Part shown: one piece after another, positions 21,506 to 56,547 of the stretch
Layout: every line of letters begins with the position of its first letter
Position numbering within the stretch: the stretch's first letter is position 1
From: Serendipita indica DSM 11827
Lineage: Eukaryota > Basidiomycota > Agaricomycetes > Sebacinales > Serendipitaceae
Direction of reading: 5' to 3'
DNA: 64,000 nucleotides
Assembly: GCA_910890315.1 (NCBI GenBank)
Contig: CAJVGD010000005.1
Location: forward strand, 186,001 to 250,000
Position numbers and translations under genes: made by a program
The notes under the pieces: generated by a model
Told to the model about the DNA's origin: nothing
The model's database searches: none
What the model saw: only the letters and a program-made list of their open reading frames with translations

Positions 21506-21894
21506 GTAGACCCAAATACGGCTCAGAAGTGACATATTGTACCCTTATCCAACTAAATACATCTATACGCCATACTCGAAGCCAGAAGTCTACAAAACCC
21601 GGTACCAGATTATTATACCCATAGCTACCGGGCTTAAAAATAGACAAAGTTGCCGAGTCCAATGTCTTGATGGTATAGATTCGTCGGTTATGTTGTATTG
21701 TGACCGCCTTTTTGTGGGGGCGGCAGATGGCTTGGAGCGCGTTCGCTCCTCCCAAAGCATTTGTCGCTCGCTCAGATTTTTCCTGAGAAGTAGCACCCAA
21801 TTGTATCCCCTGAGAACGGTTCTTCTGAGTCCAGGGTAGACTGCACGGCAAAATTAGATGGGCGCTCGTCCCAGCTTGCTCCTTATCATACCAT
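21506..21894. other. Spacer between tandem Zn-cluster copies
   Basis: About 390 bases. The last ~50 resemble the sequence just before the ATG of the first copy (shared CAGCTTGC...CATACCA), so the duplication included part of the promoter. Confidence 0.5.
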
Positions 21895-23889: not shown

Positions 23890-24330
23890 GTGGACTGGCA
23901 GACGATCCAGAGGACGGAATAAACAGATCACTATTTCTCTACGACACTTAGACGTGAAATGCTGTAGTCACACTCTGTGTTTAAATGCATTTGATACGGG
24001 TGTTCTGAGTCAAACGAATGCTGACTCAATGTGGCACTTCTTAGACTGCATTTCGCCTCCACGCTCCAGTACTGTAAGCATGAGTGGATATTCCACAAAC
24101 TATACCCACCTTGAGAATCCTCCTGTCACTGCAAACTGACGCTACTTGCCAGCCTCAAAGGCTGGTCGTCTTTGTCGCCAACCACAACCGCCAGCAACAG
24201 TTGGCTGCCTTTCCCACTACGCTATAGCAAAAAGTGATTCCTTTGACGAGTCTCGATCACGACTAACCTGACTTTGAGGTTGGTGCCAGTCTCTTTATCG
24301 TTTTATTGGTCACATCTGCCCCTCTACAGG

Positions 24331-25800
24331 ATGTTTCTCAAGAAAAGATTATTCGATTCAAAGTTCTTTATTCGCAAAACTATATATGAGGATGAAAGCC
24401 GGCAGATTATTGAGGATAGGGAAACACAGCACTCTTACTCAGATTCTCCCGACGCGCCAACAAGTCCACCGCTCCCTGTCGAAATCTGGCTGCAAATCTT
24501 TCGACTCTGCTTGGGGCCTTCATTATCAAACCCGAGGCAGAGGTCACTCTATGCCTATACACAATTTGTATTCCTTTCAAAAATGGATGCACGGTATGCA
24601 TACCTGAAGATAGAACAGAATCGCGCCATTCTGCGTCTCGTATGCCGCACGTGGAAGATACTCTTGGACGATTTTGATGACTTGCTCCGAATCAGTCATC
24701 TACGCAACGGCGACTGGCCTCGACGTCCGACAAACAGGCAGAACAAGGTCGCTTATTATATCCTGGAAGAGAGAAGGCTCTGTGGGATGAGGCGTATTGT
24801 CGAAGCGCATCATAGTAGCCCAGCGAAGTATCGAGCTGGCTACTATGAAGATGAAAAACTTTGCATTGGTATCGAATTCCCTCTAGCACGTATTACGACT
24901 ATATTGAACCAAGACATTCTTATTTCACCCAGCTATGACCTAGCTCAACCTATCCTTGCTCTTCGTTGGTGGTCAGGTCAAAGCGCGGATCCATTGACTA
25001 CACTTCTCCACCCCGTCTTCTCTTCGTTACTCGCCCTTTCTTTAACTATCGATTATCCCACGACTCACCTCTATGGCTGTCAGGACTTCATCCTACCGGA
25101 GCTACGCTATCTCGAACTCATCCTGCGCAAGAAGTGGACCCTTCCACGAGAGAAAGCAGAGATGACAATTTCAACCTGGAGGTTCCCCAAACTAACTTTG
25201 CTCCGAGTCAACGCAATAACGGAGCAGGACGCCAAAGATGAGCTACTCGGTCTAGTACGCGCCCATGCTCACCAAATAGAGGAGCTTCATGCATCGATGT
25301 ACGATGCCCAGTTTCCGACGCCACAAGATTGGCAGAGTTTTCGCTCGCTTAGGTTGATCGTATTTGATTCGCTCAACCTCATGGCAGATGGACTTTCATC
25401 TGCGAATGTCCGCTGGAACACTACACGCCCCGGTATCTCTGATGCATCGAACGTGGCGCACCGACGGCTCACCATGAGTCTTCAATATCCGCCCACCGAA
25501 AACGAATTGATTTCGAGTATCTTGCCAAAATTTGATGCATGCCAAAGTATACTCCCTAATATTGACTTTGCGGTAACAACAACTTGGCAGGCAATACGGG
25601 AGAAAATCGAAGCGAACCACTTTTACCATGATATGGTCGCACTTCATGGCTTGAGAGACACGTTCATGGTAGCGGAGAAGCTGGGTATTGACATTGTCGA
25701 TCCGGATGGGTATGGTCTCTATTCTGACAGGGCGCGCAATGTCAGAAGTCTCGTCCAGGATATCATCTCCGATGGAATTACTGCCGAGTTATTTACTTGA
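24331..25800 (+). CDS. Interrupted-F-box family protein, full length (489 aa)
   Basis: Single open frame from ATG 24331; upstream in-frame codons lack an ATG. Residues about 50-65 read PLPVEIWLQIFRLCLGPS, an F-box first helix. The second half, AILRLVCRTWKILLDDFDD, comes only after an insert of about 35 residues (NPRQRSLYAYTQF...). The insert is shared by all seven relatives in the window. The remaining ~350 residues hold family blocks: FPLARITTI, QPILALRWW, HPVFSSLLALSLTI, LPELRYLEL, WRFPKLTLLRV, LVRAHAHQIEELHAS and the C-terminal VDPDGYGL. An SCF adaptor role is inferred from the F-box halves only. It is intronless, like the other family members. Confidence 0.78.
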   Translation: MFLKKRLFDSKFFIRKTIYEDESRQIIEDRETQHSYSDSPDAPTSPPLPVEIWLQIFRLCLGPSLSNPRQRSLYAYTQFVFLSKMDARYAYLKIEQNRAILRLVCRTWKILLDDFDDLLRISHLRNGDWPRRPTNRQNKVAYYILEERRLCGMRRIVEAHHSSPAKYRAGYYEDEKLCIGIEFPLARITTILNQDILISPSYDLAQPILALRWWSGQSADPLTTLLHPVFSSLLALSLTIDYPTTHLYGCQDFILPELRYLELILRKKWTLPREKAEMTISTWRFPKLTLLRVNAITEQDAKDELLGLVRAHAHQIEELHASMYDAQFPTPQDWQSFRSLRLIVFDSLNLMADGLSSANVRWNTTRPGISDASNVAHRRLTMSLQYPPTENELISSILPKFDACQSILPNIDFAVTTTWQAIREKIEANHFYHDMVALHGLRDTFMVAEKLGIDIVDPDGYGLYSDRARNVRSLVQDIISDGITAELFT

Positions 25801-26255
25801 GACTTCTCTCGTTAAAAGCGAAACGCGGTCATGTCTTGCCGTAGTTTAATGATACCGGGTTCCAAAGTCAAATAAGAGGCAGAATGCAAATATTGGGACG
25901 TATATATATTGAAGTATCGGTTGCCAGTTCAGCAGAAACCTTATTCAGCAACTGCCCTGCATCTGCATGAATGCTGTAGTTGTTATAAGCAAACTTGTAG
26001 ACCAGAACCATAAAGAGTCCACCTAAATTCATAATGCAGGCATTCAATGAGAACGATGTTTGGTAATCTTCTCTGCCGACCACGTCCGCCATAAAAATTC
26101 TTCGTAGTTGTAGGAGCGAGATAACAATAGAGTAATCCTGTGGGCAACTCTCAGAGTTGGATCAAAGTAGATCAGCCTGTTTGCGGTCTGTACCTATCTA
26201 TCAGTGCTCCTGTTGCTCTAGTGAACAGTCTGACAGGACATATCTCGGGAAAGAC
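25801..26255. other. Spacer between two F-box relatives
   Basis: About 455 bases, no supported gene. The open frame running into the next gene before its first ATG has no family similarity and is treated as leader. Confidence 0.5.
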
Positions 26256-27713
26256 ATGTCTCTGGTCAATTCCTTTATCAGAAGGATCACGTTCAATGCC
26301 AAACATCGAAGCGTCGTCGTCAGCAACTCCGAAACAACGCATGATCAGATTTCCGCAACAAGAACCTTGCCGCCACTTCCCGTTGAGATATGGCTTAAAA
26401 TCTTCCGATTATGCCTCGGACCCTCGCTTTCGAACCCGAGGCAAACCTCTCTCCACGCATATAGCAAGTTTGTCTTCCTTTCCGATGGAGAAACCGCGCG
26501 CGCATATCTAAAGAAAGAACAGACTCGAACCGTTCTAAGTCTTGTTTGCCGTGCATGGCACACAATATCCAAGGACTTGGATGATGCGCTCCAAATCAGC
26601 CTTCTGGACGAGTTCGACTGGCCGCCTCACCGCTCAAGAGGCCAGGCAAAGGTTATACATTATCTACAGAAGGAACCGTTATCTTATCTATTCGATAATC
26701 CCGTCAAAGAATACCGTCAGAGCCACATACCCCACCAGCAAGGCCCTCGCCTTCAGGATGAAACGATTCAACTTGGTAACGAACATCCACTGGCGCCTAT
26801 AACCGCAGTCGTTGACTACGATATTTGGATCCCTCCCAATTACACCCCAGCTCAACCCATTCAGGCATTTCGTTGGTCACCTTGTCAGATTCCATTCGTA
26901 GATAGTCCGAACCAACTTTGCCATCCAGTTTTTTCCAGTCTAGTTGCCTTGTCACTAGTTCTCTTCTATCCTCCATCCCATCCCGACACATACAAAGGAA
27001 TTGCATTGCCGGAACTTCGTTTTCTCGAAGTCGTACTCCTCGAAAGCCGTTTGCTGGTATCATCGATAACAGAGGGGACGGTTTCAACCTGGCAATTCCC
27101 AAGACTTTCGATAGTCAGGGTTCATGCGAGGGAAAATGCCGATGCCAAGACGGAGTTGCGCACTCTTGTGCGCACTCACGCACACCAAATCGAAGAGCTT
27201 CAAATATCCGACCTTGGTGACGCTTTCCCAACCCAATATGACTGGCACACCCTTTGCGTGCTCAGGTTGATCGTATTTCACTCGCTCGATCAGATGGGAG
27301 ACGCGCTCTCATCCATGGACACTCGTCAGTTATCTGTAGCTACTGGCCTCTCTCGACCACATGGCCAGGTGGAAACAACACGCAAACGCTTGACCATGAG
27401 CCTTCAATACCCTCGGGAAGACATTCAGTCCAGATCAGCTGCTCTACAGAAGTTTGATGCCTGCAGGGAAATCCTCCACAACTTCAATTTTGCCGTAGCA
27501 AGAACATGGCAAGACCTGCGGGAGAGTTTCCAGGCGGTCAAACTCTACCATAACGAGAGCACACTAGAAGACTTGAGAGAGACATTGGCGTTGATGGAAA
27601 GGCTGAAACTCGACTTTGTCGACCCAGATGGGTACAGCTTTCATTCAGAGGCACGGTATTTCAAGAATGAAATTGAAGATTACATCCGCCGAATCGGCTC
27701 CGCATCGGCCTAA
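26256..27713 (+). CDS. Interrupted-F-box family protein, full length (485 aa)
   Basis: Starts at ATG 26256 (MSLVNSFIRRITF). Same plan as the preceding gene: LPPLPVEIWLKIFRLCLGPS, the shared insert (NPRQTSLHAYSKFVFLS), then TVLSLVCRAWHTISKDLDDA. Later blocks are HPLAPITAVVDYDIW, HPVFSSLVALSLVL, LPELRFLEVVL, WQFPRLSIVRV, LVRTHAHQIEELQIS, RKRLTMSLQYP and VDPDGYSFHS near the end. It and the 24.3 kb gene form a tandem pair, more like each other (shared CLGPSLSNPRQ and VDPDGY) than like the minus-strand array (YLGPSITNL, VDPAGNG or VDPDGNG). No frame damage is seen. Confidence 0.78.
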   Translation: MSLVNSFIRRITFNAKHRSVVVSNSETTHDQISATRTLPPLPVEIWLKIFRLCLGPSLSNPRQTSLHAYSKFVFLSDGETARAYLKKEQTRTVLSLVCRAWHTISKDLDDALQISLLDEFDWPPHRSRGQAKVIHYLQKEPLSYLFDNPVKEYRQSHIPHQQGPRLQDETIQLGNEHPLAPITAVVDYDIWIPPNYTPAQPIQAFRWSPCQIPFVDSPNQLCHPVFSSLVALSLVLFYPPSHPDTYKGIALPELRFLEVVLLESRLLVSSITEGTVSTWQFPRLSIVRVHARENADAKTELRTLVRTHAHQIEELQISDLGDAFPTQYDWHTLCVLRLIVFHSLDQMGDALSSMDTRQLSVATGLSRPHGQVETTRKRLTMSLQYPREDIQSRSAALQKFDACREILHNFNFAVARTWQDLRESFQAVKLYHNESTLEDLRETLALMERLKLDFVDPDGYSFHSEARYFKNEIEDYIRRIGSASA

Positions 27714-28740: not shown

Positions 28741-31700
28741 TTACTGGTTCGCATCCATTTGAATATTAGTCCAGAAGAGTCCGCATTGAAAACGTGTGAA
28801 ATCGCGTCGGGTTGCACGGAACGAACTCTTGGTCGGTATAGTTAGAAGATGCGGATATCGCAGGCCATGACGGTTGGCTGGGGGTACCCAGAAAAGAAAG
28901 TTTCGAGAAGATGGAACCCATCCATTGTGCAAAAGGGAGCAAATTTTGAACCCAGGTACAGAAATCTCCAGAGGAATGCCCTGCTCACTGTCCACAAGTT
29001 CCAAATGTACGAGTTCTCCATCCTTTTGGGTAGATACATTGGTATTTATATCTATGACCATTTGTTAGCTTAGTCACGCAGCCAGCGATCGCCCATAAAT
29101 CCACCCACCCTTCTCTGCATCCCACAGCCAAATCGTCCTGTCGCTCGAGGCAGAGACAATTCGTGAACCATTTGGTGAGAAAGAGACAGCGTTTACCTGA
29201 CCGCTATGGCCTCTGAGTGGTTCTCCCAACGGTTGACCAGTCGCTACATCCCACAGTCTAATAGTCTTGTCGCTTGAGCAAGAAGCAATTCTTGAGCCGT
29301 CTGAAGAGAATGTGACGGCCATGACCCTGTCCCAGTGACCATGAAGTGGCTCACCCACTGGCTGGCGAGTTTCTACATCCCACAGTCGGACCGTTGTATC
29401 GAATGAGCCGGAGACAATTCGGGATCCATCCGGCGAGATGTCAACGGAGAAGACCGGGCCTTTATGACCCAGGAACGGTGTTCCCAACGGTCGACCGGTG
29501 TCAACATCCCACACCCGAATTGTAGCGTCGTTTGAACCAGAGAAAATCTGGGAGCCGTCCGGAGAGGGGACGACAGCCACACCGAGTGGGTGTGACCTTG
29601 GAGTGTTTCTCCCAGCTGCTGTCCAGTACCTACATCCCACAGTCGAATGGTCATATCCCTCGAGTCAGAGACAATTTTCGGGCCCTCCGGCGAGATCGCT
29701 ACAGTCAGTAGCTGTAATGCGTGACCTCTTAATGGCTCTCCCAGTGGCTGACCAGTGTCTGCGTCCCAAATCCGAATCGTCCAGTCGGACGATCCAGAAA
29801 CAATGCAGGAACCATCCGGAGAGATCGCAACGGCGTTGAATGCCAATTGGTGACCTCGAAGTGTTCTGGGTAACCCAGCGTACACCTCTTCAAGCCCCTG
29901 GGTAACAGCGAGCGCACCCGCATATTTCGTTCGGCCCTCGTGGTGTAGTTCCGAGTTTTTAGGAGTAAAAGGAATTGCGGAAATATAGATGTGAGGAGCA
30001 CTGTCCTGGATTGGCACTGAAAATGCCATAAAAACCGACTGATTTCGGTCATTCTGCTTCTAGTCTCCCCTTCAAACAGTATATAGCCTAAGAAAATGGA
30101 TAATTTGGACTAAGTCACTCACTCGCGGAATCCAGCTATTGCTCGCAACACACCCCCAGTCAAGCTTAAAACCTCTATCCAATATAGACCGTACGGGGCC
30201 TGGACGACGTGTCTCAAGTCTCTTTTGAGGGCACTTGGCCAGTTATCGTCAGCTTCGGCCAGATGGAAGAGCCAATGGGAACTGGCATAGCAAGTCTTTT
30301 TGGAATGAATTTTGATACTCTTGCATCGAGGTCTGCGATTTGCCTGTTGAGGTAGAAGGATGAGTCAATCTGACATATATTGAATTTGAGACCCACTGTC
30401 CGTGACTTGAGCCGCTGAAGACACCATGATGCTGCTTGACCATGAGCCTTGATGGCATTGATGTAGATTCTGGTACTATTAGCGACGGTTGAGGCAACGG
30501 AACGGCGTCGAAGGTACTCGACGATGGTGGTATGACGAAATTGAATGAGATTTGTGCTGTAATCCGCACTAAGTACGCTTCCCAGATTCTGTAGTATCGC
30601 CTTTCCACTTCCCCAGACTCCAGCGTGCTTAAGGAGGTCCTCCAGGTCGTCAACGGTGAATGGTTCGAATGCTACAACGGGTAGAGCGAGCATCTCACAC
30701 ATGACCGCACGAGACTCGGCGTCTGTACGCTCAAGGATGAGGTCATATACCCCATCTATAGCTCCAGGTTGATCCAAGGAAACTAGGTGATCAAATATGC
30801 TTTCAGGAGTGTTCATGGTGGTCTCGCGGTTGAGCATTCGGCACGCGGTGCTCGCCCAAATAAACAAGCCGCTCGTTTTTCCTACCAGCTGTTGTCTCTT
30901 TTCAAGAGGTAACACTCCGTCCAGTCACTGATACACATAGACGGCGATGTCGTCCACATTATCGCGGTGATTGACATCGTGTAGGCGATCCGCTAACTTG
31001 GACTTGATGGTGAATGGGCGGCCCAGCGCTGGATTGTCTGAAGAACAGCTTCACGGGTTCCTTGCATACAGGAATTGTGCACCGAGGACGGAACTAATGC
31101 TATCGTTGGTAGCTGGGGTATAGCAGCAGAGTCGACTGAAACGGCTAAGCAATCATCACATCAGAGTTCCGGCTTACCGTCTGTCAAAATTGTTTCCACG
31201 TTAGCTTTTGTGACCTCCACGTTGACATTGGTGACCACTGTGGTTTATTCGATAGTTTGAATGCGTAACGCGGTAAAAAGACCCAGCGCCTCCTGTTTGT
31301 ACGGTGAACCCCTGAACAAAACCATTGAAGCTCGTACCATGAATTGTTTGTGCTTGTCTTCGATATCTCGATTGAGTCTACGAATCTCCCCTGCGTCCAC
31401 TTTGACTTTGCTAAAGGCTTTGAAGAGGTCGAGTTTGCCACGACTGCATTTCTCCTTTAGATTGAGGACCATGTCGTGTATGTTCTCCAAGAATCTAAAT
31501 TGGTCAATCTCTTGAAATAAACTTGGACTGTTCACACACTCGATATACCGGACGAGTGGCCGGCTAAACGCCTTGTTGATCACCCTCTCCTGTGGAGGAT
31601 ACGCGTCGAACAAAGTGAGTTGTTCCTCGAGGGCAGACATGTATTTTTTTAGACGTCGGGCAAGGTCGTTTCATTCTTCCTTGTTGTTTTCCATCGCCTG

Positions 31701-41794: not shown

Positions 41795-44406
41795 TTAGAG
41801 ATCGTCGTCAGCGAGCTCGTCGATCATCTCAGGGTCGATAGGCTGCTCTTCAACTTTGGGCGCAGTCTCTTCCTTCTTGACTTTCCTATTATCGAATTGG
41901 TTAGTTCGACGGGAGGAGGAAAGATGAAAGTCGTCGTATGAGGAGATTTACTCACTTGCTTGTGCCTGTCGACTTTCTGCCTTTTGTCCTCATACCCTGA
42001 TCCTCTGCAGGAGGGCGAAGGTTCTCGTGGATGACCTCATGCAGCCCATAGATTCTGTAGAGCTCAAATACGGCTTGTTCTTTATCCTTTGCCTCGATCA
42101 TTAGGTCCATGTCGTCGGGCAGATCTGCTGGGAGTGTGTCGCATCTGTCCGCGTGTGCGCGAAGTTCCATTGCGGTGACGGCACCTGGACGTGGCTGCGA
42201 GAGGTGCTGCTTGGGCTTGATGCCACGCCTGATCCAGGTTTCGTTGATGAGTGGGATCAACTCTGCCGCCGATCGACGCGAAGGCTGGGTATTTGTCAGT
42301 GCAAGTTTGAGATGGTGAATGTAAATGAATTACGTTGATCGAGTCGTGATGATAGTCGAAAACGATTGGTATCCCTAGTTCTGGGCAGACCTTCAACAAG
42401 TCATCGGCGTTGTAACAGATCTATACAGCATGTTAAAGATATACTGAAATCACAAAAAGCGATCTTACCTCGTCATTTTCCAGTACGAGTCGTCGCTTTA
42501 CGCGGTCGCTCAGCTTCTTTTGATAATTCTCCTTGAAGCGCGCGAGCGTTGTAGCCTTGTCACCATATACACCCTAGATCATTGTCAGTATAAAGATATA
42601 GCAGAGAGAAGTGACATACACCCATATGGATAATCATGACCGAGTCTTGATCCAAACCCATCCTGTCCATTATCTCCGCGTGATCTTTGAGCGTCCATCA
42701 GTATCAGGATACAAACAGGAGAAGGCTTGACACACATTCGAGTTCCTTGATACTCTGATCTACAACATTGTCCTTTGGCGAAGCGAGTTGTGTAAACTGT
42801 CCGGGATGCATGGTGAGGCGGTGGCCGTATTTTTTCGCGAGATCGCCAACGGCCTTGAGCTCTTCCGCGCAATAGGCGAGGTCGTATCCATGCTCGTTAT
42901 GCGAGGCGAATGGGAACATTTCAGATGACATGCGCATGAAGCGAATGCTACCGGTCTTGAGCACCACGCATATACGAGCCGAGTCGACCTACTTGTTCTT
43001 TTCGTTCCACTAGAAGAATGTTAACTGCATTCCTCGTATGGTACTGTGCTCACCTCAATCATTTGCAGTAAATCCTGCACATTCTGGCGTCCCAGCTCCT
43101 TGACTTTGTCGATACCAAACTTGGTGATCGTGTCCAATCGGCATGTCCTATGCACGTTTATGACAACTGGTGATCCGAGGCGAGATTGCGCTTACCGACT
43201 ACTAAAGATCGACGGCTTTTGTGCTCGTAGAACCGTGTTTAGACACGCCTAGAGAGAGTATGAGGGACTGAGCGCAGAAGGTATCACTTGACTGACATAT
43301 CCTAACCGACCTGATGACGTCGTGAGCCGCGGAAAAGTCTCAACAGCAAAAGGCTTACCTCTAAATGTCGTCGTTTTGCGTTCGACATCTGGAATGACAT
43401 AGACAACAGGTTCGGTGACTTTCGGCTTGCGTGTGCGCTTAGGTTTGGCGGGTTCGTCTGCATCTTCGCCTTCAGCCGTGCCGTCTCCTTCTACAGGTGC
43501 AATAGACTTTTTGCGAGCGCGAGGCTGCTTCGTAGCGTCACCTTCACCGTCTACTTCCATGGCTTCGCCATCCGTCTCCTCCTTTTTCTTCTTCTTGCTC
43601 GCACGCTTCTTGACGGGCTCTCCTTGCTCTGCATCTGTCTTTGCACCCTCGGCATCTTCTTCCTCTGGTCCACCCGCAGTGGATCGTTTGCGCTTTCTTG
43701 CGGGCTTCTTCACGGCCTCGGCACCTTCTTGCGTTTCCTCGCCTTCTGGTGCCTCGCTCGTCTCCTTCTGTGCATTCTTGGGCTTTCTTCTCCTTCGTCG
43801 GCGCTGAACAGGTTCATCATCAGATGAGTCCGAGTCCGAGTTACGGGGAGGGAGTGGTTGAATCTTGACAGGTTTGCGGACACGAGTCGAGCGACGTGGA
43901 ACAAACTCTTCTTCTTCTTCCTCTTCCTCTTCTCCTTCCTTTTTGTTCTCTTCTCCACCCTCGCCCTCGTCCCCGTCCGGTTTGCCGTTCATCATGCCGG
44001 CGGCGTCATCACCCGCTTCCGACAGAGGTGGGAGAGGATGAGAATCGGCGTTTGTGATAGTAGAGAGTGCCATGGGTGACCCACGGACTTTGCCATTCTC
44101 GACGATGGTCAACAAGCTTTTTGCAGGGCGAACTTCGGGCGAATGTGGATGGTCGATAGACATTGGACTGGCCATTTTCTTGTACGTCTGTTTGTTCTTA
44201 GTTTTCGCTTTGGCAGCTGGGGAGGATGCCAGCCTAATCTGGGTGTGGCCTAATTGTCCTCGTGAGTTTCCACGGTCCGCAGAGAGAATTTGGATAAGGG
44301 AAGAGGTGGGAGCACGAGTAAATATGAGATTCCTTGTCAATTGAGCAAAACAAGTTGCAGAAAGTCTCCTGGCCGGCAAATGGAGCACAGACGACGTCGG
44401 GAACAT
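41795..44406 (-). CDS. UVE1: UV-damage DNA endonuclease (UVDE/UvsE family)
   Basis: Eleven exons (minus): 44406-43359, 43310-43297, 43248-43196, 43147-43054, 43009-42993, 42947-42736, 42684-42620, 42573-42469, 42420-42334, 42284-41956, 41885-41795; 704 residues. The catalytic TIM barrel begins RGRLGYACLNTVLRAQKPSI and shows RMSSEMFPFASHNEHGYDL, YGHRLTMHPGQFTQL, MIIHMGGVYGDKATTL, RRLVLENDEICYNADDL, IVFDYHHDSIN and ELIPLINETW, with the metal-binding His, Glu and Asp of the family. UVDE nicks 5' to UV photoproducts, starting an excision pathway independent of nucleotide excision repair. The first ~340 residues are Lys/Glu-rich and probably disordered, with nuclear-localisation-like clusters. The extreme N-terminus (LPARRLSATCFAQLTRNLIF) looks like a mitochondrial presequence; an internal Met at 44175 (MASPMSIDH) could give a nuclear form. 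Two exons are 14 and 17 nt. Confidence 0.93.
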
Positions 44407-45189: not shown

Positions 45190-46638
45190 TCAAGTAAGGG
45201 AGCTAAAGGCACGTATCACTTGTTCATCATCAAGTGCCTCTCGTAGACAGCGAGCCTCGTAGGAATCAAGGCCGTTCCCATCTGGGTCGACAAAGTCTAC
45301 GCCCAGGGTTGTCATCAGCTCCAAAGATCTCCTAAGATCATTATACGTGCCCTCGACGTACTGACACTGAGTGATAGGCAGCCGTATAGACTCCCATGTT
45401 TGTGCCATTGTAAAATCAATATTTGGGAGGATGGATTGGCACTGACTGAAGGCTTGAATAACGTGCATATTGGTATACCGGCTGATATGAGGATACTGAA
45501 GGCCCATGGTGAGGCGCCGAGGTATCGTCTCTGTTCCAATTATCTCTTTGGACGTATTGGTCGATGTTCGCGTCCAAAGAGTACCCACAGAGGAAAATGC
45601 ATCCACCAGCATATCGATATCGCCCGCCACATATAGTTGAAGTGAGCAAAAGCGCTGCCAGTCATCGGATGTCGGAAGCTTCCCACCAAGATGTGACACA
45701 TGGAGCTCTACAAGCTGGCTACTGTGAGCTCGTATGAGACCGAGCACATCGTTCTCGGAGAATTTCCCAATAGAATTTACATGGAGAAAGGCAAGCTTAG
45801 GAAACCTCCAAGTTAGAACCGACCTATTTGTCCCGGATTCTGCGAGTTCTACATCCGACAGGTTCCGGAAGAGGGTGATATTCAGATAACGAAGCTGCAG
45901 TAATGTGAAATATCGTATTGTTTCCTGGATAGATACAGGACGCCAAAGCGACAAGGACAGTGCGAGTAACCCAGAAAAGATTGGGTGACATAACATCTGG
46001 ATAGCATTTGGTACCCGAGAAGTAGACCATGTAAATGCAAGCATGGGTGTTGCCGGGCTGTATGTGGACGGAAGATGGATGTCAAAGTCATACACGACAG
46101 TAATTGGAGCCAGTGGGAACTCCTTGTCGAATCCGAGCACTTGGTTCTCAGAAAGTTGATTATAGATTTTCCCGTTGGCCTCGTGGTAAGACTTGACGGG
46201 ATCTTTATGAAGGGGATAAAACCCACTGGAAAGATAGTATATAGCTTTTGCTTGGGGTTTTGAACAGCCAGGAGGCCAGTCAATCTCGTCCGAATGGCTC
46301 ATCAGAACGGCGTCGTCCAGGTCATCAGCGAGCATCTTCCATGTATGGCATACACGACGCAGGACACTTCGAATCTGCTCTTTCTTGCGATATATGCGTG
46401 CAGCGTCTCCCCTATGGAGGGAGATACAGTGAGCGTAGCTGGAGAATGAGTCTCGTGACAAGTTTGTAATTGATGGCCCAAGGTAGAGTCGAAAAATTTG
46501 AAGCCAGAGCTCGACAGGAAGTGATGGCAACTGCCTTGCAGGCTTGAAGAAGTGATCCGCAAGTAGCCAAACGGTATCGCCTCGTTGATAATCAAGATTA
46601 TGGCTACCTTCGTTTTCCGAGGGAGTTGGTAGAGCCAT
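45190..46638 (-). CDS. Interrupted-F-box family protein, array copy 1 (482 aa)
   Basis: Open from ATG 46638 (MALPTPSENEGSHNLDY); the longer frame upstream has no ATG. F-box halves LPSLPVELWLQIFRLYLGPS and SVLRRVCHTWKMLADDLDDA flank the family insert. Later blocks: DWPPGCSKPQAKAIYYLSSG, EFPLAPITVVYDFDIH, LLQLRYLNITLFRNL, WRFPKLAFLHVNSIGKF, RAHSSQLVELHVSHLGG and VDPDGNGLDSYEARCLREAL at the end. It is intact and nearly identical to array copy 3 over its N-terminal two thirds, but differs sharply after about 45,650. An SCF adaptor role is inferred. Confidence 0.78.
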   Translation of the reverse strand: MALPTPSENEGSHNLDYQRGDTVWLLADHFFKPARQLPSLPVELWLQIFRLYLGPSITNLSRDSFSSYAHCISLHRGDAARIYRKKEQIRSVLRRVCHTWKMLADDLDDAVLMSHSDEIDWPPGCSKPQAKAIYYLSSGFYPLHKDPVKSYHEANGKIYNQLSENQVLGFDKEFPLAPITVVYDFDIHLPSTYSPATPMLAFTWSTSRVPNAIQMLCHPIFSGLLALSLSLWRPVSIQETIRYFTLLQLRYLNITLFRNLSDVELAESGTNRSVLTWRFPKLAFLHVNSIGKFSENDVLGLIRAHSSQLVELHVSHLGGKLPTSDDWQRFCSLQLYVAGDIDMLVDAFSSVGTLWTRTSTNTSKEIIGTETIPRRLTMGLQYPHISRYTNMHVIQAFSQCQSILPNIDFTMAQTWESIRLPITQCQYVEGTYNDLRRSLELMTTLGVDFVDPDGNGLDSYEARCLREALDDEQVIRAFSSLT

Positions 46639-47890
46639 GACTTCTTTGATGCAGGAATATTGTCTTGCGACAAACAGTGGCCGAGAATCAGTAGTGGTAG
46701 AGAACAAGTTCGGCTCGACCACATCCCAAGTCGTTGATTCTTGACAAGTAAATGGCCACAAACATCACATAAGGCTTCATCTATGCAATCAGGGCAACCT
46801 CAGACGGCCTATAGACTTCTAGTAAGACCTAGGCTTGGCTCTGGGACCATCTTTATTCATCAGTAACATGAGTAGAACACGCATTCCCCCAATAACTGCC
46901 TTTATATTTCATCTTTGGGGCAGATGACAGGCACCGTGATGCAGTTTAGAGTCCCTTGTTGCTCAATCCACACTAAATACATTCCAACTCGTAAGTCAAC
47001 TCATTTAAATGGGTATGAATGATCGGTTTGTCTTCAATTGAGGGAGATTTTATTCCCTTCCACCTTGCAGGAGCTCTGGTGGCCCACGTTGGACCGCACT
47101 CTTCAGACAGCGGGCCTCATAGGAGTCAAGGCCATTTCCGGCTGGATCAACAAAGTCAACCCCCAGGCTTTCCATCAGCTCCAATGATTCTCTGAGAGCG
47201 CTATACGTGTCGTGGCGGTACTCGGACTCGGTAAGAGTTGTTTGTATGGAGTCCCATGTCTGTGACACTGCGAAATCAAGAAAGGGAAGAATGGACTGGG
47301 ATCCCTCGAACTCTTGAATAATGTGCGCCTTTGTATACCGGGTGCTCCGGGGATACTGAAGACTCATCGTGAGGCGTCGAGGTGTCGTCTCGGCTATCAT
47401 TGTCTCATTGGACATACTGTTCGATTTACGCGTCCAGAGAGTGCCCACGGAGGAAAGTGCGTCAGCCAGCATGTCGAGGCTGTTCACCACGAATAGCTGG
47501 AGCGAGCAAAAACTCCACCAGTCATCGGATGTTGGAAACTCCGCACCAAGACTTGAAGCGTGGAGTTCTACAAGTTGTCTACTATGAGCTCGTAGGAGAC
47601 CAAGAACCTCCTTTTTGGGATGTTCTCCAAGACCTTCCACTCGGAGAAGGGTAAGCATAGGAAAACGCCAAGATGAAACCGTCCCAACAGCCGGCACTCC
47701 CATGAACGGCGTGTAGAGTATGATATCCAGGTAGCGAAGCTGCGGCAATGTGAAATCTCGCATCACCTCTTGGTGAGATACCGTATGCCGGAGCACCAAA
47801 GAAAGTGCAAGTAACCCAGAAAATACTGGGTGATATAACGTCTGGATGACATCTTGGACGCGAGAAGTTATCCATCGAAATGCTAGAGGG
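45650..47890 (-). repeat. Duplicated block, left copy (matches 49340-51580)
   Basis: Start codon 46638 matches 50326, and stop 47050 matches 50738: both are offset by exactly 3,688 bases. Spacer and coding sequence between are nearly identical. The ends of the match fall inside coding regions of copy 1/copy 3 (left) and copy 2/copy 4 (right). Confidence 0.75.
46862..47040 (-). promoter_or_regulatory. Conserved upstream module of array copy 1
   Basis: Shared, in decreasing similarity, with the regions before copies 3, 2, 4 and 5. On the gene strand it carries a TATAAA-type element (AAATATAAAGGC) about 260 bases before the start codon. It is probably the core promoter with flanks. Confidence 0.5.
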
Positions 47891-48437
47891 GATTTACATG
47901 GCTGTAAGCGGGCGGAAGTTGGATTGCATAGTCATACACGATAGTAATGGGAGCCAGTGGAACCTTCTCACCGAATTGAAGCACTTTGTTCTCGGAGGAT
48001 GGTTGATAAAATGTACCCTTGGCCTCGCGGTAAGCTTTGACGGGATCTCTCGCGTCGTATTGTTGAAATCTGTCGGAAGTATAGTATATAGCTTTTGCTT
48101 GGGGCTTTGAACGACCAGGAGGCCAGTCAAACTCGTCCAAATTGCTCATCACAATGGCATCGTCTAGCTCATTAGATAGCGTCTTCCATGTGCGGCACAC
48201 GCAACGCAGAATGGCTCGCATATGCTCCTTCTTGCGATATATGCGCGCAACTTCTCCGCTGTTCAGGCGGACACATTGGCCATAGCCATAAAGTGAGTTT
48301 TGTGGCAAATTTGTGATCGATGGTCCGAGATAGAGTCGAAAGATTTGACGCCATAGCTCGACGGGAAGGGATGGCACCTGCCTTGCTGCAGGATGCAACT
48401 GAAAATTTTGATTGTCAAGGCCGGCGGATTTGTCCAT
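47050..48437 (-). CDS. Interrupted-F-box family protein, array copy 2, mosaic with one frame break
   Basis: ATG 48437 (MDKSAGLDNQNFQLHP). The 5' half (to about 47,893) matches array copy 5, including the 180 bases before the ATG. The 3' half (MRDFTLPQLRYLDI ... GPPELLQGGRE) matches array copy 4 almost exactly. At the join the frame breaks. Copy 5 reads AATCCCCTTCTAGCA and copy 4 CATCCCCCTCTAGCA, whereas this copy has AATCCCCTCTAGCA, one base short (plus strand 47885-47891). With one more base it would encode about 462 residues in the family pattern. It is either a recombinant gene killed at its junction or an assembly error. F-box halves VPSLPVELWRQIFRLYLGPS and AILRCVCRTWKTLSNELDDA are intact. 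Confidence 0.7.
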
Positions 48438-48622
48438 CCACTGTCAAGAGTCTATCAGAGGTGAAGGCAAACCAGGTGAGGAGAGCGTTCACCTTGGAAG
48501 ATCTCGGCGATATAGATAAGCAGTGGTGGAAACCAAGTTTGATCTCTACCAGATCTATTTAGACAGACATATCACAGCCTATTTTGATCTATAGATCTCA
48601 CTATTCTTCGAAATTCGGACTC
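47895..48622 (-). repeat. Duplicated 5' segment shared by copies 2 and 5 (matches ~53390-54121)
   Basis: Start codons 48437 and 53935 are 5,498 bases apart, and the match continues upstream of both to CGAAATTCGGACTC with the same offset within a base. It includes the first half of the gene and about 185 upstream bases. Confidence 0.65.
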
Positions 48623-48699
48623 CTTCCGGCGTATCACGGTCGTCCAGTTGAACCAGGATGACTCGGTTTTTGTGACCGTTTCCATCAGCCTTGCAACCG

Positions 48700-48840
48700 A
48701 CACACATGAAGCACGCATTCACACGAGTGGTGCCTTTAAATACTCAAATAGTAAGGCAGGTGGCAGGCACTCCGATGCGGCTTACAGTCCTTGTTGCTAG
48801 TTATATCTTAAATACATTCTAATCCGTGATTCGACTCATG
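48700..48840 (-). promoter_or_regulatory. Conserved upstream module of array copy 2
   Basis: A diverged version of the module at 46862-47040 (shared CACGCATT, TTTAAATACTC, GGCAGGCAC, CCTTGTTGCT, AATACATTC), about 270 bases before copy 2. Confidence 0.45.
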
Positions 48841-48867
48841 TTGTAGAGAATGGAAGTCACCATCAAG

Positions 48868-50326
48868 TCAAGGAGGGTGTAAATGGCGCCACCGCTGAGG
48901 TTTGAGGACGGACTTTTCAACTGCGTCCTTCAGGCGGCGAGCCTTGTAGGAACCAAGGCCATTTCGGTCTGAGTCGATAAAGTCGAATCCTAGGCTTTCC
49001 ATCAATTTCAAGGCCTTTAGAATAGCCATATGTGGATTCCCGAGAGAGGTGGACTGAATGAGAGATGTCCGTATGAAATGCCATGTTTGTGACGTTGTGA
49101 AATCGATATTTGGGAGGATGAATCGACACTGTCTGAATGTTTCGAGAACATGCATCTCGGTAGGCGGGCCAATATGGGGATACTCAAGGCACGTGGTGAG
49201 GCGGCGAGATACCATCCCAAATATCTCTCTCTTCTTTGGACGCCTCGGCTGATTTCTGCGTCCAGAGAGTACTCGCAGAGGAGAGTGCTGTAGCCAATAG
49301 ATTGAGCGAGTTCACCACGAGTAACCTGAGTGAGCAAAAGCTCTGCCAGTCCTCGGAGGTCGGAAGCTTCCCACCAAGATGTGACGCATGGAGCTCTACA
49401 AGCTGGCGACTGTGAGCTCGTATGAGACCGAGCACATCGTTCTCGGAGAATTTCCCAATAGAATTTACATGGAGAAAGGCAAGCTTAGGAAACCTCCAAG
49501 TTAGAAACGATCCATTTGTCCCGGATTCTGCGAGTTCTACATCCTACAGGTTCCGGAAGAGGGTGATATTCAGATAACGAAGCTGCGGTAATGTGAAATA
49601 TCGTATTGCTTCCTGGATAGATACCGGACGCGAAAGCGACAAGGACAATACGAGTAACCCAGAAAAGATTGGGCGACATAACATCTGGATAGCATTTGGT
49701 ACCCGAGAAGTAGACCATGTAAATGCAAGCAGGGGTGTTGCCGGGCTGTATGTGGAAGGAGGATGGATGTCAAAGTCATATACGACAGTAATTGGAGCCA
49801 GTGGGAACTCCTTGTCGAATCGGAGCACTTGGTTCTCAGAAAGTTAATTATAGATTTTCCCGTTGGCCTCGCGGTAAGACTTGACGGGATCTTTATGAAG
49901 AGGATAAAACCCACTGGAAAGATAGTATATAGCTTTTGCTTGGGGTTTTGAACGGCCAGGAGGCCAATCAATCTCGTCCAAATGGCTCATCAGAACGGCG
50001 TCGTCCAGGTCATCAGCGAGCATCTTCCATGCATGGCATACACGACGCAGGACACTTCGAATCTGCTCTTTCTTGCGATATATGCGTGCAGCGTCTCCCC
50101 TATGGAGGAAGATGCAGTGAGCGTAGCTGGAGAATGAGTCTCGTGACAAGTTTGTAATTGATGGCCCAAGATGGAGTCGAAAAATTTGAAGCCAGAGCTC
50201 GACAAGAAGTGATGGCAACTGCCTTGCAGGCTTGAAGAAGTGATCCGCAAGTAGCCAAACGGTATCGCCTCGTTGATAATCAAGATTATGGCTACCTTCG
50301 TTTTCCGAGGGAGTTGGTAGAGCCAT
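48868..50326 (-). pseudogene. Interrupted-F-box family, array copy 3, broken
   Basis: The ATG at 50326 and first ~195 codons are almost identical to copy 1. Then a stop replaces Gln in the KIYNQLSENQ motif (CAA to TAA, near 49,846), and a second stop replaces Ser in FRNLSDVELAE (TCG to TAG, near 49,544). A frame change lies near 49,215, where GISPPHHVP must give way to MVSRRLTTCLEYPH. From about 49,340 to the end the sequence no longer follows copy 1. It comes from another, more diverged relative (AILKALKLMESLGFDFIDSD), so this copy is also a recombinant. At least three breaks make it a pseudogene, and its closeness to copy 1 says the loss is recent. Confidence 0.82.
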
Positions 50327-51580
50327 GACTTCTTTGATGCAGGAATATTGTCTTGCGACAAACAGTGGCCGAGAATCAGTAGTGGTAGAGAACAAGTTCG
50401 GCTCGACCACATCCCAAGTCGTTGATTCTTGACAAGTAAATGGCCACAAAACATCACATAAGACTTCATTTATGCAATCAGGGCAACCTCAGACGGCCTA
50501 TAGACTTCTAGTAAGACCTAGGCTTGGCTCTGGGACCATCTTTATTCATCAGTAACATGAGTAGAACACGCATTCCCCCAATAAATACTTTTATATTTCA
50601 TCTTTGGGGCAGATGACAGGCACCATGATGCAGTTTAGAGTCCCTTGTTGCTCAATCCACGCTAAATACATTCCAACTCGTAAGTCAACTCATTTAAATG
50701 GGTATGAATGATCGGTTTGTATTCAACTGAGGAGATTTTATTCCCTTCCACCTTGCAGGATCTCTGGTGGCCCACGTTGGACCGCACTCTTCAGACAACG
50801 GGCCTCATAGGAGTCAAGGCCATTTCCGGCTGGATCAACAAAGTCAACCCCCAGGCTTTCCATCAACTCCAATGATTCTTTGAGAGCGCTATACGTGTCG
50901 TGGCGGTACTCGGACTCGGTAAGAGTTGTTTGTATGGAGTCCCACGTCTGTGACACTGCGAAATCAAGAAAGGGAAGAATGGACTGGGATCCCTCGAACT
51001 CTTGAATAATGTGCGCATTTGTATACCGGGTGATCCGGGGATACTGAAGACTCATCGTGAGGCGTCGAGGTGTCGTCTCGACTATCATTGTCTCATTGGA
51101 CATACTGTTCGATTTCCGCGTCCAGAGAGTGCCTACGGAGGAAAGTGCGTCAGCCAGCATGTCGAGGCTGTTCACCACGAATAGCTGGAGCGAGCAAAAA
51201 CTCCACCAGTCTTCAGATGTCGGAAACTCCGCACCAAGATCTGAAGCGTGGAGTTCTACAAGTTGTCTACTATGAGCTCGTATGAGCCCAGGAACCTCCT
51301 TTTTGGGATGCTCTCCAAGACCTTCCACTCGGAGAAGGGTAAGCATAGGAAACCGCCAAGATGAAACCGTCCCAACAGTCGGCACTCCCACGAATGACGG
51401 GTGCGTGTAGAGCGTGATATCCAGGTAGCGAAGCTGCGGCAACGTGAAATCTCGCATCGCCTCTTGGTCAGATACCGTATGCCGGAGCACCAAAGAAAGT
51501 GCAAGTAACCCAGAAAATACTGGGTGATATAACGTCTGGATGACATCTTGGACGCGAGAAGTCATCCATCGAAATGCTAG
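49340..51580 (-). repeat. Duplicated block, right copy (matches 45650-47890)
   Basis: Covers the 5' two thirds of copy 3, the spacer, and the 3' half of copy 4. Small differences (for example AACTGCCTTT against AAATACTTTT in the spacer) show it is recent but not the same read. Confidence 0.75.
50551..50737 (-). promoter_or_regulatory. Conserved upstream module of array copy 3
   Basis: Nearly identical to 46862-47040, with AAATATAAAAGT on the gene strand about 260 bases before ATG 50326. The copy 3 pseudogene therefore still has its promoter. Confidence 0.5.
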
Positions 51581-52177
51581 AGGGGGATGTACAGGGCTGT
51601 AGGTGGGCGGGAGTTGGATTGCATAGGCATACACGATAGTAATGGGAGCCAGTGGGACCTTATCACCGAATTGAAGCACTTTGTTCCCGGAGGATCCTTT
51701 ATAACTTTTAACGTTGGCGTCGCGGTAAGTTTTGACTGGATCTTTCTTCTGATGTTGAAGCTCGTGGGAAAAATAGTATATAGCTTTTGCTTGGAGTTTT
51801 GAACGGCCAGGAGGCCAGTCAAACTCGTCCAAATGGCTCATTAGAACGGCGTCATCCAGATTATCAGAGAGAGTCTTCCATGTACGGCAGACACAACGCA
51901 GCACTGCTCGCATCTGCTCCTTCTCGCGATATATGCGCCCAGCTTCTCCACTATGGAGGGAGATACAGCGAGCATAGCCATATAGTGAGCTTTGTGGCAA
52001 ACTTGTGATTGATGGCCCAAGATACAGCTGAAATATTCGATGCCAGATCTCGACCGGAAGTAAGGGCAACTTGCTTGCGGGGTTGATAAGTCGATGCGCC
52101 GGTGGCTGAACACTATCGCCTGGTTGATACTCAAGATTATGGCTGCGTTCGTTTCCTGGGAGATTCAATAGAGCCAT
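50738..52177 (-). CDS. Interrupted-F-box family protein, array copy 4 (479 aa), intact
   Basis: Start at ATG 52177 (MALLNLPGNERSHNLEYQ); the frame upstream begins with a TTG. F-box halves LPLLPVEIWHRIFQLYLGPS and AVLRCVCRTWKTLSDNLDDA enclose the insert (LPQSSLYGYARCISLHSGEA). Then DWPPGRSKLQAKAIYYFSHE, VPLAPITIVYAYAIQLPPTY, HPVFSGLLALSLVLRHT, FTLPQLRYLDITLY, WRFPMLTLLRVEGLGEHPKK, RAHSRQLVELHASDLGAEFP and a VDPAGNGLDSYEARCLKSAV end. It is the best-preserved member of the copy 2/4/5 subgroup. Its 5' third has no close match elsewhere in the window. Confidence 0.8.
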   Translation of the reverse strand: MALLNLPGNERSHNLEYQPGDSVQPPAHRLINPASKLPLLPVEIWHRIFQLYLGPSITSLPQSSLYGYARCISLHSGEAGRIYREKEQMRAVLRCVCRTWKTLSDNLDDAVLMSHLDEFDWPPGRSKLQAKAIYYFSHELQHQKKDPVKTYRDANVKSYKGSSGNKVLQFGDKVPLAPITIVYAYAIQLPPTYSPVHPPLAFRWMTSRVQDVIQTLYHPVFSGLLALSLVLRHTVSDQEAMRDFTLPQLRYLDITLYTHPSFVGVPTVGTVSSWRFPMLTLLRVEGLGEHPKKEVPGLIRAHSRQLVELHASDLGAEFPTSEDWWSFCSLQLFVVNSLDMLADALSSVGTLWTRKSNSMSNETMIVETTPRRLTMSLQYPRITRYTNAHIIQEFEGSQSILPFLDFAVSQTWDSIQTTLTESEYRHDTYSALKESLELMESLGVDFVDPAGNGLDSYEARCLKSAVQRGPPEILQGGRE

Positions 52178-52383
52178 GGATCCGTTGATGCGATAATGTT
52201 TGTAGCCTGCAACAGCAGAAATGGCCAAGGCTCAGTCCTGGCCAAGACCAAGTTCCACGACCCACATTCCAACTCCTTCACCTTGAAAAACCTATCACAG
52301 CAAATATAATCTACAAAACGCAATATTTATAAAATAAGAGCAACCTCTAACGGCTTACGCTCGTCAACCACCTCCAGCAGTCC

Positions 52384-52500
52384 CCTAAATAGAACACGCA
52401 TTTGCACATATCCCACCTTATTCAACCTTGAGGCAAACGATAGGCGCCATGATGCGGATACAAAGTCTTTGCCGCTGATTCTATTTCAACTACAATCCTC
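52384..52500 (-). promoter_or_regulatory. Conserved upstream module of array copy 4, diverged
   Basis: Shares AGAACACGCATT, CACCTTATTCAACCTTGAGGC and GGCGCCATGATGCGG-like words with the other modules; about 210-320 bases before ATG 52177. Confidence 0.4.
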
Positions 52501-52526
52501 GATAGGTTTGGGGAATGAGTCTGCAT

Positions 52527-53935
52527 TCAATATAGGGAAGATTCACCGCAAAACCCGTCTTGTAGCGGCTCTGGAGACATCAGTTCGACTGTACTTTTCA
52601 AACAGCGGGCCTCATAGGAATCAATGCCATTCCCGGCTGGATCGACGAAGTCAATTCGCAGGTTTTCCATCAACCCCAACGATTCCCTGAGATTCTTACG
52701 CGCCTCAGTGTGGTAGTCGGACTCGGTAAGTGTCGTTTGTATGGAGTCCCATGTCCGTGACACTGTAAAATCGAGAAAGGGAAGAACAGACTGGGATTGC
52801 TCGAACACTCGAATAATGTGTACCTTCGTATGCCGAGTGATCATGGGATACTGAAGACCCATAGTGAGGCGTTGAGATGCCGTCTCAACTATCATCGTCT
52901 CATTGGACGTATTGGTCGATTTCCGCGTCCAGAGAGTGCCCACGGAGGAAAGCACGTCAGCCAGCATGTCGAGGTTATTCATCACGAATAGCTGGAGCGA
53001 GCAAAAACTCCACCAGTCATCGGATGTCGGAAACTCCACACCGAGATCCAACGCATGGAGTTCTACAAGCTGGTTACTATGAGCTCGTATGAGACCAAGA
53101 ACCTCCTTTTTGGCATATTCTCCAATAGCATCCACTCGGAGAAACGCAAGCATAGGAAAACACCAAGATGAAACCGTCCCATAAGCCGGCACTCCTGCTG
53201 AAAAAAGGCTATTGTAGAGTGTGATATCCAGATAGCGGAGCTGCGGCAATGTGAAATCTCGCGTCACCTCCGGGTCAGATGCCGTATACCCAAAAATCAA
53301 GGAAAGGGCAAGCAATCTAGAAAATACTGGGTGATATAACGTCTGGGTAGTATCTGAGACCTAAGAAGGCGACCACCTAAATGCTAGAAGGGGATTTATC
53401 GGGCTGTAGGTCGAGAATATGGATCGCATAGTCATACACAATGGTAATGGGAGCCAGTGGGACCTTTTCACCGAATTGAAGCACGTACTTTCCCCGGAGT
53501 TCTTTGAATTTTACCCTTGGCCTCGCGGTAAGCTTTGAGGGGATGTCTTGTGTCGTAATATTGAAGGTCGTCGGAAATATAGTATATGGCTTTTGCTTGG
53601 GGCTTTGAACGACCAGGAGGCCAGTCAAACTCGTCCAAATTACTCATCACAATGGCATCGTCTAGCTCATCAGATATCGTCTTCCATATACGGCACACGC
53701 AACGCAGAATGGCTCGCGTCTGCTCCTTCTTGCGATATATGTGCGCAACTTCTCCACTATTGAGGGAGACACATTGGCCATAGCCATAAAGTGAGTTTTG
53801 TGGCAAATTTGTGATCGATGGTCTGAGATAGAGTCGAAAGATTTGACGCCATAGCTCGACGGGAAGGGATGGCAATTGCCTTGCTGCAGGATGCAGCCGA
53901 AAATTTTGATTGTCGAGACCGCCAGATTTGTCCAT
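52527..53935 (-). pseudogene. Interrupted-F-box family, array copy 5, broken
   Basis: ATG 53935 (MDKSGGLDNQNFRLHP) opens 155 codons with both F-box halves. The frame is lost near 53,490, where copy 2 has QPSSENKVLQFG and this copy has an altered stretch. It resumes in another frame (VLQFGEKVPLAPITIVYDYA), is damaged again near 53,400-53,320 (a stop follows AFRWSPS), and then runs open from 53,315 (MLALSLIFGYTASDPEVTRD) to the stop at 52527 with family motifs to the end. At least three breaks. Confidence 0.8.
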
Positions 53936-54384
53936 CCACTGTCAAGAGTCTATCAGAGGTGAAGGCAAACCAGGTGAGGAGAGCGTTCACCTTGGAAAAT
54001 CTCGGCGAAATAGATGAGCAGTGGTGGAAACCAAGTTTGATCTCTACCAGATCTATTTAGACAGACATATCACAGCCTATTTTGATCTATAGATCTCACT
54101 ATTCTTCGAAATTCGGACTCCATCCGCTGTCGAGAGCTTCTCAGACGTGAAAATAAAACAGATTAGGAGACGTTTACATAGGAAGATTTCGACTATACAG
54201 AGGTTCAGTGGTGGACACTAACTTTGATCTCAACCACTCCGGTCTCATTGCCCTTGACGGACATACTGAGGTAAATTTTGATCTACAAATTTGACTATCC
54301 ATTAAAATTAGGGCTCTCTCTGACGGCTCACGGTCATCCAGCTAAACCACGGCTCGTCGTCTCTATCAACCATGCAGCCAACGC

Positions 54385-54465
54385 ACATAGAGCGCGCATT
54401 TTCACAAGTCCCACCTTTGAACACTCAAGCACTAGGCCAGATGGCAGGCCCAAATGACTTAGCAT
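54385..54465 (-). promoter_or_regulatory. Outermost copy of the array upstream module, overlapping the next gene's start
   Basis: Matches the module before copy 2 (GCGCGCATT, CCTTTGAACACTCAA, GGCAGGC). It lies 450-530 bases before copy 5 and spans the first ATG (54372) region of the plus-strand gene, so that region may be a bidirectional promoter rather than coding. Confidence 0.4.
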
Positions 54466-55560: not shown

Positions 55561-56340
55561 CTAGAGACCAGTAGAACCGAAGCCTCCGGCTCCTCGCAAC
55601 GTCTCTTCTAAATCCTAAAACGCTTGTCATGTGCGTGCTACACAATCAATATGTGGTACACACCTGGACCTCAACTACAGGAGGTGTCTCAATCTTTTCC
55701 AGAATTAACTGGGCGATACGATCTCCAATAGAGACTATTTCAAGGGATCAGCAGCTGCCGTTTCAGGTCGTCAGGACTCACTCTTGAACTCTTTCTCGCC
55801 ATGGTTGAACAAAAGGATGAATAGGGGGCCACGGTAGTCTGCATCTACGACACCTGCACCTGTAGCAATCATATGTTTCGAGGCTGATACATGGACAAGT
55901 GAGTCTCAACTGTAGATTAGATATATATATGGACGTACCGAGACCACTCCTCGGCGCTACTCGTCCATAGGTTCCTTCTGGAACGGCAAGGGAGATGTGG
56001 GTATTCACTAGTGCCTTCCCTCCCGCCGGAATAGTCGTATCTTCACCACTAGAGTCATTATATCAGGATGCAATTCTAGATCTTGTGACAACGGGACTGA
56101 CCTGTAAAGATCATATCCAGCAGCCAATGCTGAACCTCTTGTGGGCAATCGTGCGTTCTCGTTGAGCCTTTTGATCAACAGTGATCTACTTGGGACGCTC
56201 TTGGGATCCGCCGTCTTGACTGTATCCGCTACAGCACTCGATACGGCTATCGCTTCGACGGTGGGCTGATCAGACGTGTTGAGCACTTTCGACGGTCGCT
56301 GCTCAGGATGTGGCGACGCCGGACGCTTGAGATCAGACAT
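55561..56340 (-). CDS. DUT1: Deoxyuridine 5'-triphosphate nucleotidohydrolase (dUTPase)
   Basis: Exons (minus) 56340-56102, 56048-55939, 55883-55782, 55734-55664, 55614-55561 sum to 191 residues. All five trimeric dUTPase motifs are present: [10 protein letters not shown] (1), RVAPRSGLA (2), [13 protein letters not shown] with the catalytic Asp and Tyr (3), GDRIAQLIL (4) and the Gly-rich C-terminal arm [10 protein letters not shown] (5). The enzyme hydrolyses dUTP to dUMP and pyrophosphate, keeping uracil out of DNA. Residues 1-60 are Pro/Ser-rich with [14 protein letters not shown], perhaps a nuclear signal. Upstream in-frame Met codons exist, but MSDLKRP is the natural start. Confidence 0.96.
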
Positions 56341-56547
56341 ATTTATTTTAACGAGTTGATCGGTCTTTGTGATTGAATATCGACTTGTCAGAGAAAATTG
56401 AGGGAAGAGGCGCGGTGCAACGAGTGAGCCGCGTTGTTTGCTCGACGCGTCGCTCCCAACCACGACTTTGCATTCTCGCGGTTGGCCCCCATTTTATGAA
56501 CTAGCAACTAATATCGGCGCATTCAAGTTTATACGCGCGTTTCTTCA
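56341..56547. promoter_or_regulatory. Divergent promoter between dUTPase and a nuclear-type gene
   Basis: 207 bases between two opposite ATGs. It contains GACGCGTCG (56445-56453) with the core ACGCGT (56446-56451), the MluI cell-cycle box bound by MBF in fungi. That would suit the S-phase gene DUT1. The functional reading is inference. Confidence 0.5.

Follow-up and report, generated by a model that had tools for sequence, protein, structure and literature searches.

A mosaic array of F-box-like genes in Serendipita indica and its probable origin in ectopic exchange between paralogues

How do neighboring gene copies come to resemble one another in pieces rather than along their whole length? 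The question is raised by a tandem array of five related F-box-like copies, c1 to c5 (Table 1), which occupy the minus strand in head-to-tail order at 45.19–54.13 kb of a 64-kb window of the genome of Serendipita indica DSM 11827. The window, by which we mean the whole stretch of DNA analyzed, corresponds to positions 186,001–250,000 of contig C5 (CAJVGD010000005.1); all positions are those of the window unless a contig is named, and genome searches covered 24,708,602 bases in 55 contigs. S. indica is a mutualistic root symbiont, and F-box is named among its expanded families in the genome report (PMC3192844). As assembled, c1 and c4 are open, and three of the five copies, c2, c3, and c5, are broken. 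The array is a mosaic and probably arose when misaligned paralogues exchanged sequence ectopically on two or more occasions, the first of which is most simply explained by gene conversion.

A tract shared by two pairs of genes

A first-pass annotation made from the sequence alone had c1 and c3 nearly identical in their 5′ two thirds, and c2 and c4 in their 3′ half. Alignment bears this out. Identity of c1 to c3 is 0.970 up to 45,640/49,328 and 0.662 beyond; identity of c2 to c4 is about 0.79–0.80 before, and 0.959 from, 47,991/51,686. The similarity extends over a tract of 2.35 kb that covers two thirds of c1 from its 5′ end, the spacer, and two thirds of c2 at its 3′ end, and that is 96–98% like c3/c4. 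The two tract copies show 79 mismatches and 9 gap columns over 2359 columns (3.4%, 79 of about 2350), with identities of 96.7% in c1 coding sequence, 97.8% in the spacer, and 96.1% in c2 coding sequence, and a range of 91.5 to 100% in single 100-base windows. Since the spacer and both gene parts belong to one contiguous tract, the c1/c3 and c2/c4 matches represent one event. The offset between the copies, described earlier as a constant 3,688 bases, is nearly so: it is 3,688–3,689 for most of the block and 3,694–3,695 past a 6-base indel.

Both edges of the tract lie within coding sequence, and homologous register is retained on either side of each. The c1/c3 edge, placed by the annotation near 45.65/49.34 kb, is fitted in the coding sequence by a one-break model at 45,640 (2-unit support 45,645–45,640), with a log-likelihood ratio (LLR) of 105.4. 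The same fit for c2/c4 has its support at 48,001–47,981 (LLR 41.0). Neither LLR was equaled in 2000 permutations, and sliding identity changes in sharp steps, as had been predicted, rather than being uniform along whole genes. The second edge had been placed at 47.89/51.58 kb; the inner edge is indeed there, but the fitted edge is at 47,991/51,686 and a zone of intermediate similarity separates the two. The steps are also present at synonymous sites, where they are roughly 5- to 15-fold: synonymous divergence (dS) of c1/c3 is 0.044–0.057 within the tract and 0.675 outside, and that of c2/c4 is 0.054–0.081 within and 0.402 outside. Sharp limits of identity between paralogues, at synonymous and non-coding sites included, are a mark of ectopic conversion.

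Permutation and tree analyses of c1–c5 give similar indications. In a GENECONV-like test of all 10 pairs (552 polymorphic coding sites, 10000 permutations), the observed signal was matched in 0/10000 permutations for c1/c3 and for c2/c4, in 16/10000 for c4/c5, where the signal is one short segment, and in 33/10000 for c2/c5; the remaining six pairs gave 761 to 10000 of 10000. The tree of the 5′ segment supports c2 with c5, the other four topologies having p of about 1e-4 or less in the approximately unbiased (AU) test, and that of the middle segment supports c2 with c4 (p of 0.0009 or less for the other four). The phylogenies of the 5′ and middle segments are in conflict. For the 3′ segment, the best placement has c3 outside c1 (AU p 0.816), followed by c1 and c3 as sisters (0.342) and c1 outermost (0.235). 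The last two are not rejected, and a more distant relative as the source of the c3 3′ end, which the annotation had proposed, is only one possible reading. A search of the same genome for a source of the c3 3′ end elsewhere gave 8 matches, the best of which, besides c3 itself, was c1 at 48% amino acid identity.

Table 1. Features of the F-box-like array and its relatives in the window.
Feature	Position	Strand	Remarks
c1, F-box-like gene	45190..46638	-	Reading frame open, ATG 46,638 to stop 45,192; 5′ two thirds within shared tract
c2, F-box-like copy	47050..48437	-	Type-II leader and N-terminus; broken frame
c3, copy	48868..50326	-	5′ two thirds c1-like; broken frame
c4, gene	50738..52177	-	Reading frame open, ATG 52,177 to stop 50,740; type-I start like c1, body like c2/c5
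c5, copy	52527..53935	-	Broken; 5′ part c2-like
Shared tract, copy A	45641..47991	-	c1 5′ part, spacer, c2 3′ part
Shared tract, copy B	49329..51686	-	c3 5′ part, spacer, c4 3′ part
c1–c2 spacer inside tract	46639..47052	-	97.8% identical to c3–c4 spacer (9 differences/413)
c2 leader and 5′ coding segment	48079..48628	-	0.951 identical to c5
c5 leader and 5′ coding segment	53577..54126	-	c2 counterpart; probable import
Outer, second leader of c5	54119..54449	-	69% like c2 leader 48,433–48,768; ends at start-codon-like ATGGA
o1, outgroup, open relative	24274..25800	+	39% amino acid identity to c4
o2, outgroup, open relative	26157..27713	+	42% amino acid identity to c4

Leaders, hybrid copies, and broken frames

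The upstream regions divide the copies in another way. A type-I proximal leader and N-terminus are common to c1, c3, and c4; a type-II leader is found in c2, in c5, and in the outer leader of c5, and a type-II N-terminus in c2 and c5. The leader and N-terminus of c4 match those of c1 with z scores of 14.0 and 20.2, against 3.4 and 1.2 for c2, and 3.3 and 0.6 for c5. The body of c4 is 0.959 identical to c2 and about 0.82 to c5. On this sequence evidence the strongest candidate for a hybrid that is still intact is c4, which the annotation had not named as one; it has a type-I start on a c2/c5-type body.

The c2/c5 match provides evidence of another exchange. At an offset of 5,498, identity is 0.951 from 48,628/54,126 to 48,079/53,577 and 0.803 thereafter (one-break fit in coding sequence, LLR 16.8, reached in 0/2000 permutations). 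Its upstream end is in the 5′ flank, so that the earlier claim that repeat edges fall within genes holds for the two edges of the tract and fails here. The 5′ flank of c5 contains two tandem leaders. The inner one is 96% like that of c2 (232/242 bases, first coding bases included) and begins where the outer leader ends, at ATGGA. Because the leader of c5 is doubled and that of c2 has a simple arrangement, c5 is likely to be the recipient from a c2-like gene. The annotation had seen c2 as a c5-like 5′ half joined to a c4-like 3′ half; the match is as it described, but the doubled leader points to c5 as the importer, and c2 probably carries its original 5′ half.

The broken copies carry lesions of several kinds. 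In c2, the frame shifts at about 47,887–47,892, through the length of a C run, with the first stop thereafter at 47,885. Nanopore assemblies are usually weak at homopolymer lengths, and can produce errors of the type seen in c2. Substitutions have given c3 two in-frame stops, at 49,846 and 49,546, and its frame also changes near 49.2 kb; in c5 the frame changes twice and there is one more stop. With their frames broken, c2 and c3 encode no full-length protein as assembled. This contradicts their proposed role as new combinations of F-box and substrate-binding halves, and c4 is left as the one candidate by which that idea stays open. The lesions also bear on the order of events: the c3 stops are inside the tract and absent from c1, and the c2 frame shift is inside the tract and absent from c4. 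They are therefore not older than the copying of these stretches, unless the other member of the pair was the donor.

Two other sources of the lesions were considered. Short introns were judged by eye, in c2 only, to be an unlikely cause of the broken frames. Repeat-induced point mutation (RIP) was rejected as the source of the nonsense changes, as neither the substitutions nor the dinucleotide indices show a bias. C>T or G>A account for 8/20 polarized coding changes in the c3 lineage, in the contexts CpA (3), CpT (3), and CpC (2), and the TA/AT index of 0.62–0.70 in the array copies, against 0.69 in window positions 1–45,000, does not indicate RIP.

How the mosaic may have formed

In the explanation we propose, a tract of about 2.35 kb would have been copied in register between c1–c2 and c3–c4, with both ends in coding sequence. 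The direction from c1–c2 into c3–c4 is favored with moderate confidence, as it needs no extra event, whereas the reverse requires an older recombination in c4. In the favored direction, c3 would have kept its own 3′ third, and c4 would have become a hybrid in which a c2-type body follows a type-I leader and N-terminus. In the other event, the leader and 5′ coding segment of a c2-like gene would have entered c5 at a short match around its start codon, leaving two tandem leaders. The acquisition of frame-breaking changes by c2, c3, and c5, with c1 and c4 staying open, would then amount to birth-and-death evolution with conversion. The annotation had invoked repeated exchange or conversion within genes. 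The dS steps, the permutations, and the conflicting trees support exchange between paralogues with ends inside genes, but the matches at offset 3,688 count as one event.

Several observations weigh against this explanation. At the c2/c4 edge, the two copies differ at about 9/98 positions in the intermediate zone of 47,893–47,991 (98 bases), and c2 is close to neither c4 nor c5 at 48,079–47,991; this edge is therefore not one clean point, and is less clean than that of c1/c3. Distal upstream sequence is common across leader types (c1/c2 70% over 129 bases, c4/c5 61% over 174). The permutation results for c2/c5 and c4/c5 are modest once corrected for 10 pairs. A weak c1/c5 step (27/2000 permutations) falls at the same position as the c1/c4 step (2/2000), which suggests that part of the c4 coding signal is uneven conservation. 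In the F-box segment, a grouping of c4 with c1/c3 fits as well as one with c2/c5 (AU p 0.532 and 0.533), and for this reason confidence in the direction is kept moderate. A series of crossovers, finally, is a possible alternative to conversion.

Among other explanations, the most serious is that the same single tract was copied in the opposite direction, from c3–c4 into c1–c2, which would make c2 the hybrid, as the annotation had it, and c4 an older one. The tract and its breaks are symmetrical and the F-box segment is undecided, which leaves this reading a fair chance of being right; it is disfavored by the extra, older exchange needed to put the type-I leader of c4 on a type-II body. A plain tandem duplication of the two-gene unit was rejected, because high identity is not kept across the whole 3,688 bases and the leader types differ. 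Also improbable is a duplication of a 3,688-base two-gene segment through unequal crossing-over, after which further exchanges overwrote the ends and left 2.35 kb alike. The offset does equal two repeat units, the tract does span two genes and a spacer, and tandem copies must stem from duplication at some point. However, divergence outside the tract is that of ordinary paralogues (dS 0.675 and 0.402), the different leaders and N-termini of c2 and c4 mean that these are not whole-gene duplicates, and at least two additional overwriting events would be required.

The patchwork could also be produced in assembly, by misjoining of paralogues or of two nuclear haplotypes. The genome report describes a heterokaryon in which there are 2.6 single-nucleotide polymorphisms per kb and some segments diverge further (PMC3192844). 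The tract difference of 3.4% is, however, far beyond allelic divergence, and a DNA search of the genome for a second array copy matched 4 places, all within the array. If this genome is the published assembly, it was built from 324 Mb of MinION data (25,167 reads of about 12.9 kb on average, which exceeds the length of the array), with polishing by MiSeq (PMC8385953). An artefact of this kind is accordingly very improbable. That similar halves arose with no exchange, through uneven selection or mutation, is largely refuted by the dS steps. The pair c1/c5, which lies outside any exchange, also steps weakly, but the steps of the shared tract occur at synonymous sites, in the non-coding spacer, and in tree topology.

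The mosaic is ordinary in kind and requires no new mechanism. What the mapped breakpoints add is that exchange in a fungal F-box-like array can cut within genes and shift the leader/N-terminal part independently of the C-terminal part; of the copies concerned, most are now broken. The breakpoints also define junctions that may be sought in other isolates of the fungus. Conversion between neighboring F-box paralogues, detected by a GENECONV-type test, is described for Fbxo6/Fbxo44 of primates, with a tract over the F-box and some of the C-terminal region (PMC3984280). Here, in contrast, the tract takes in two genes and their spacer, in a fungal five-gene array with 3/5 copies broken. Tandem families under birth-and-death evolution, such as F-box and nucleotide-binding site–leucine-rich repeat (NBS-LRR) genes, are also alike in having tandem copies, pseudogenes beside open genes, and some exchange. 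No difference of principle is seen from these; what is particular here is two exchanges with mapped edges within coding sequence. Among the open-licence papers searched, which were partly the best matches of many, none dealt with conversion in the F-box arrays of Serendipita.

F-box identity, family, and neighboring genes

For the F-box label of the array genes, the support from sequence is sub-threshold and that from the fold is weak. All Pfam F-box hits in seven array proteins or pieces are under the cut-off, the nearest at 20.3 against 20.5 bits, and the motif is interrupted by an insertion. Of 19 family members, 13 have a match to F-box-like and 12 to F-box with an E of at most 0.1 (best E 0.0015); the profile cut-offs are known for the first of the 19 only and are not reached by that member. 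The predicted structure of c4 has a mean predicted local distance difference test (pLDDT) score of 53.4, and most of its F-box region is under 50. With this low-confidence model, the top Foldseek match is SKP2 in SKP1-SKP2-CKS1 (8byl_B; E 4.8e-3, probability 0.99), SKP2 recurs at rank 3, and rank 24 is held by a plant LRR-F-box protein. None of the matches reaches E 0.001, and many of those listed are unrelated barrel enzymes. A search with the family profile for solved relatives gave none that is credible (2 matches, best E 0.88). The resemblance to SKP2-type F-box/LRR receptors of SCF ubiquitin ligases is limited by the low confidence of the model and by F-box hits that are split and below the cut-off.

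It is a tentative and rather doubtful suggestion from sequence that c4 might be a working chimeric substrate receptor produced by conversion inside the gene, its leader, N-terminus, and perhaps F-box being of c1 type and its C-terminal domain of c2 type, and that it stays open while c2, c3, and c5 decay. If so, the array would be a natural domain shuffler of ubiquitin-ligase specificity in a root symbiont.

The family has at least 37 matches in the genome, broken genes being counted piecewise: 9 in the array, the 2 relatives in the window, and 26 outside the window, with further members on contigs C22, C10, C14, C5, and C2. The 12 stretches compared include all 26 of these matches outside the window. 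None holds a DNA match above 77%, WD40-type repeats on contig C10 aside, and the array is therefore the only recent mosaic seen among them. The repeats in question are at C10:1,034,226–1,037,157, a long run of units 73–85% alike, which suggests recent homogenization. They are related (66–69% DNA identity) to pieces of a WD40-type repeat gene at window positions 29,106–31,008, where the repeats are about 129 bases apart.

Other genes were noted in passing. Of the open frames flanking the array, 43,249–44,406 and 56,008–56,463, one is rich in charged residues and one resembles, by eye, the start of a dUTPase. A tandem pair at 18,177–19,619 and 21,819–23,251 has 66% DNA identity, and an open frame of its first member has, by eye, a Cys6-like stretch as in a zinc-cluster transcription factor. 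Two PHO84-like phosphate transporter genes lie about 22 kb apart on contig C16, at 201,016–202,698 and 223,051–224,696, the first being clearly diverged. An exon of the second is identical at 248/251 aligned residues, with differences at the ends only, to phosphate transporter chains in PDB (9b49, 7sp5), which we take to be PiPT of Serendipita (Piriformospora) indica.

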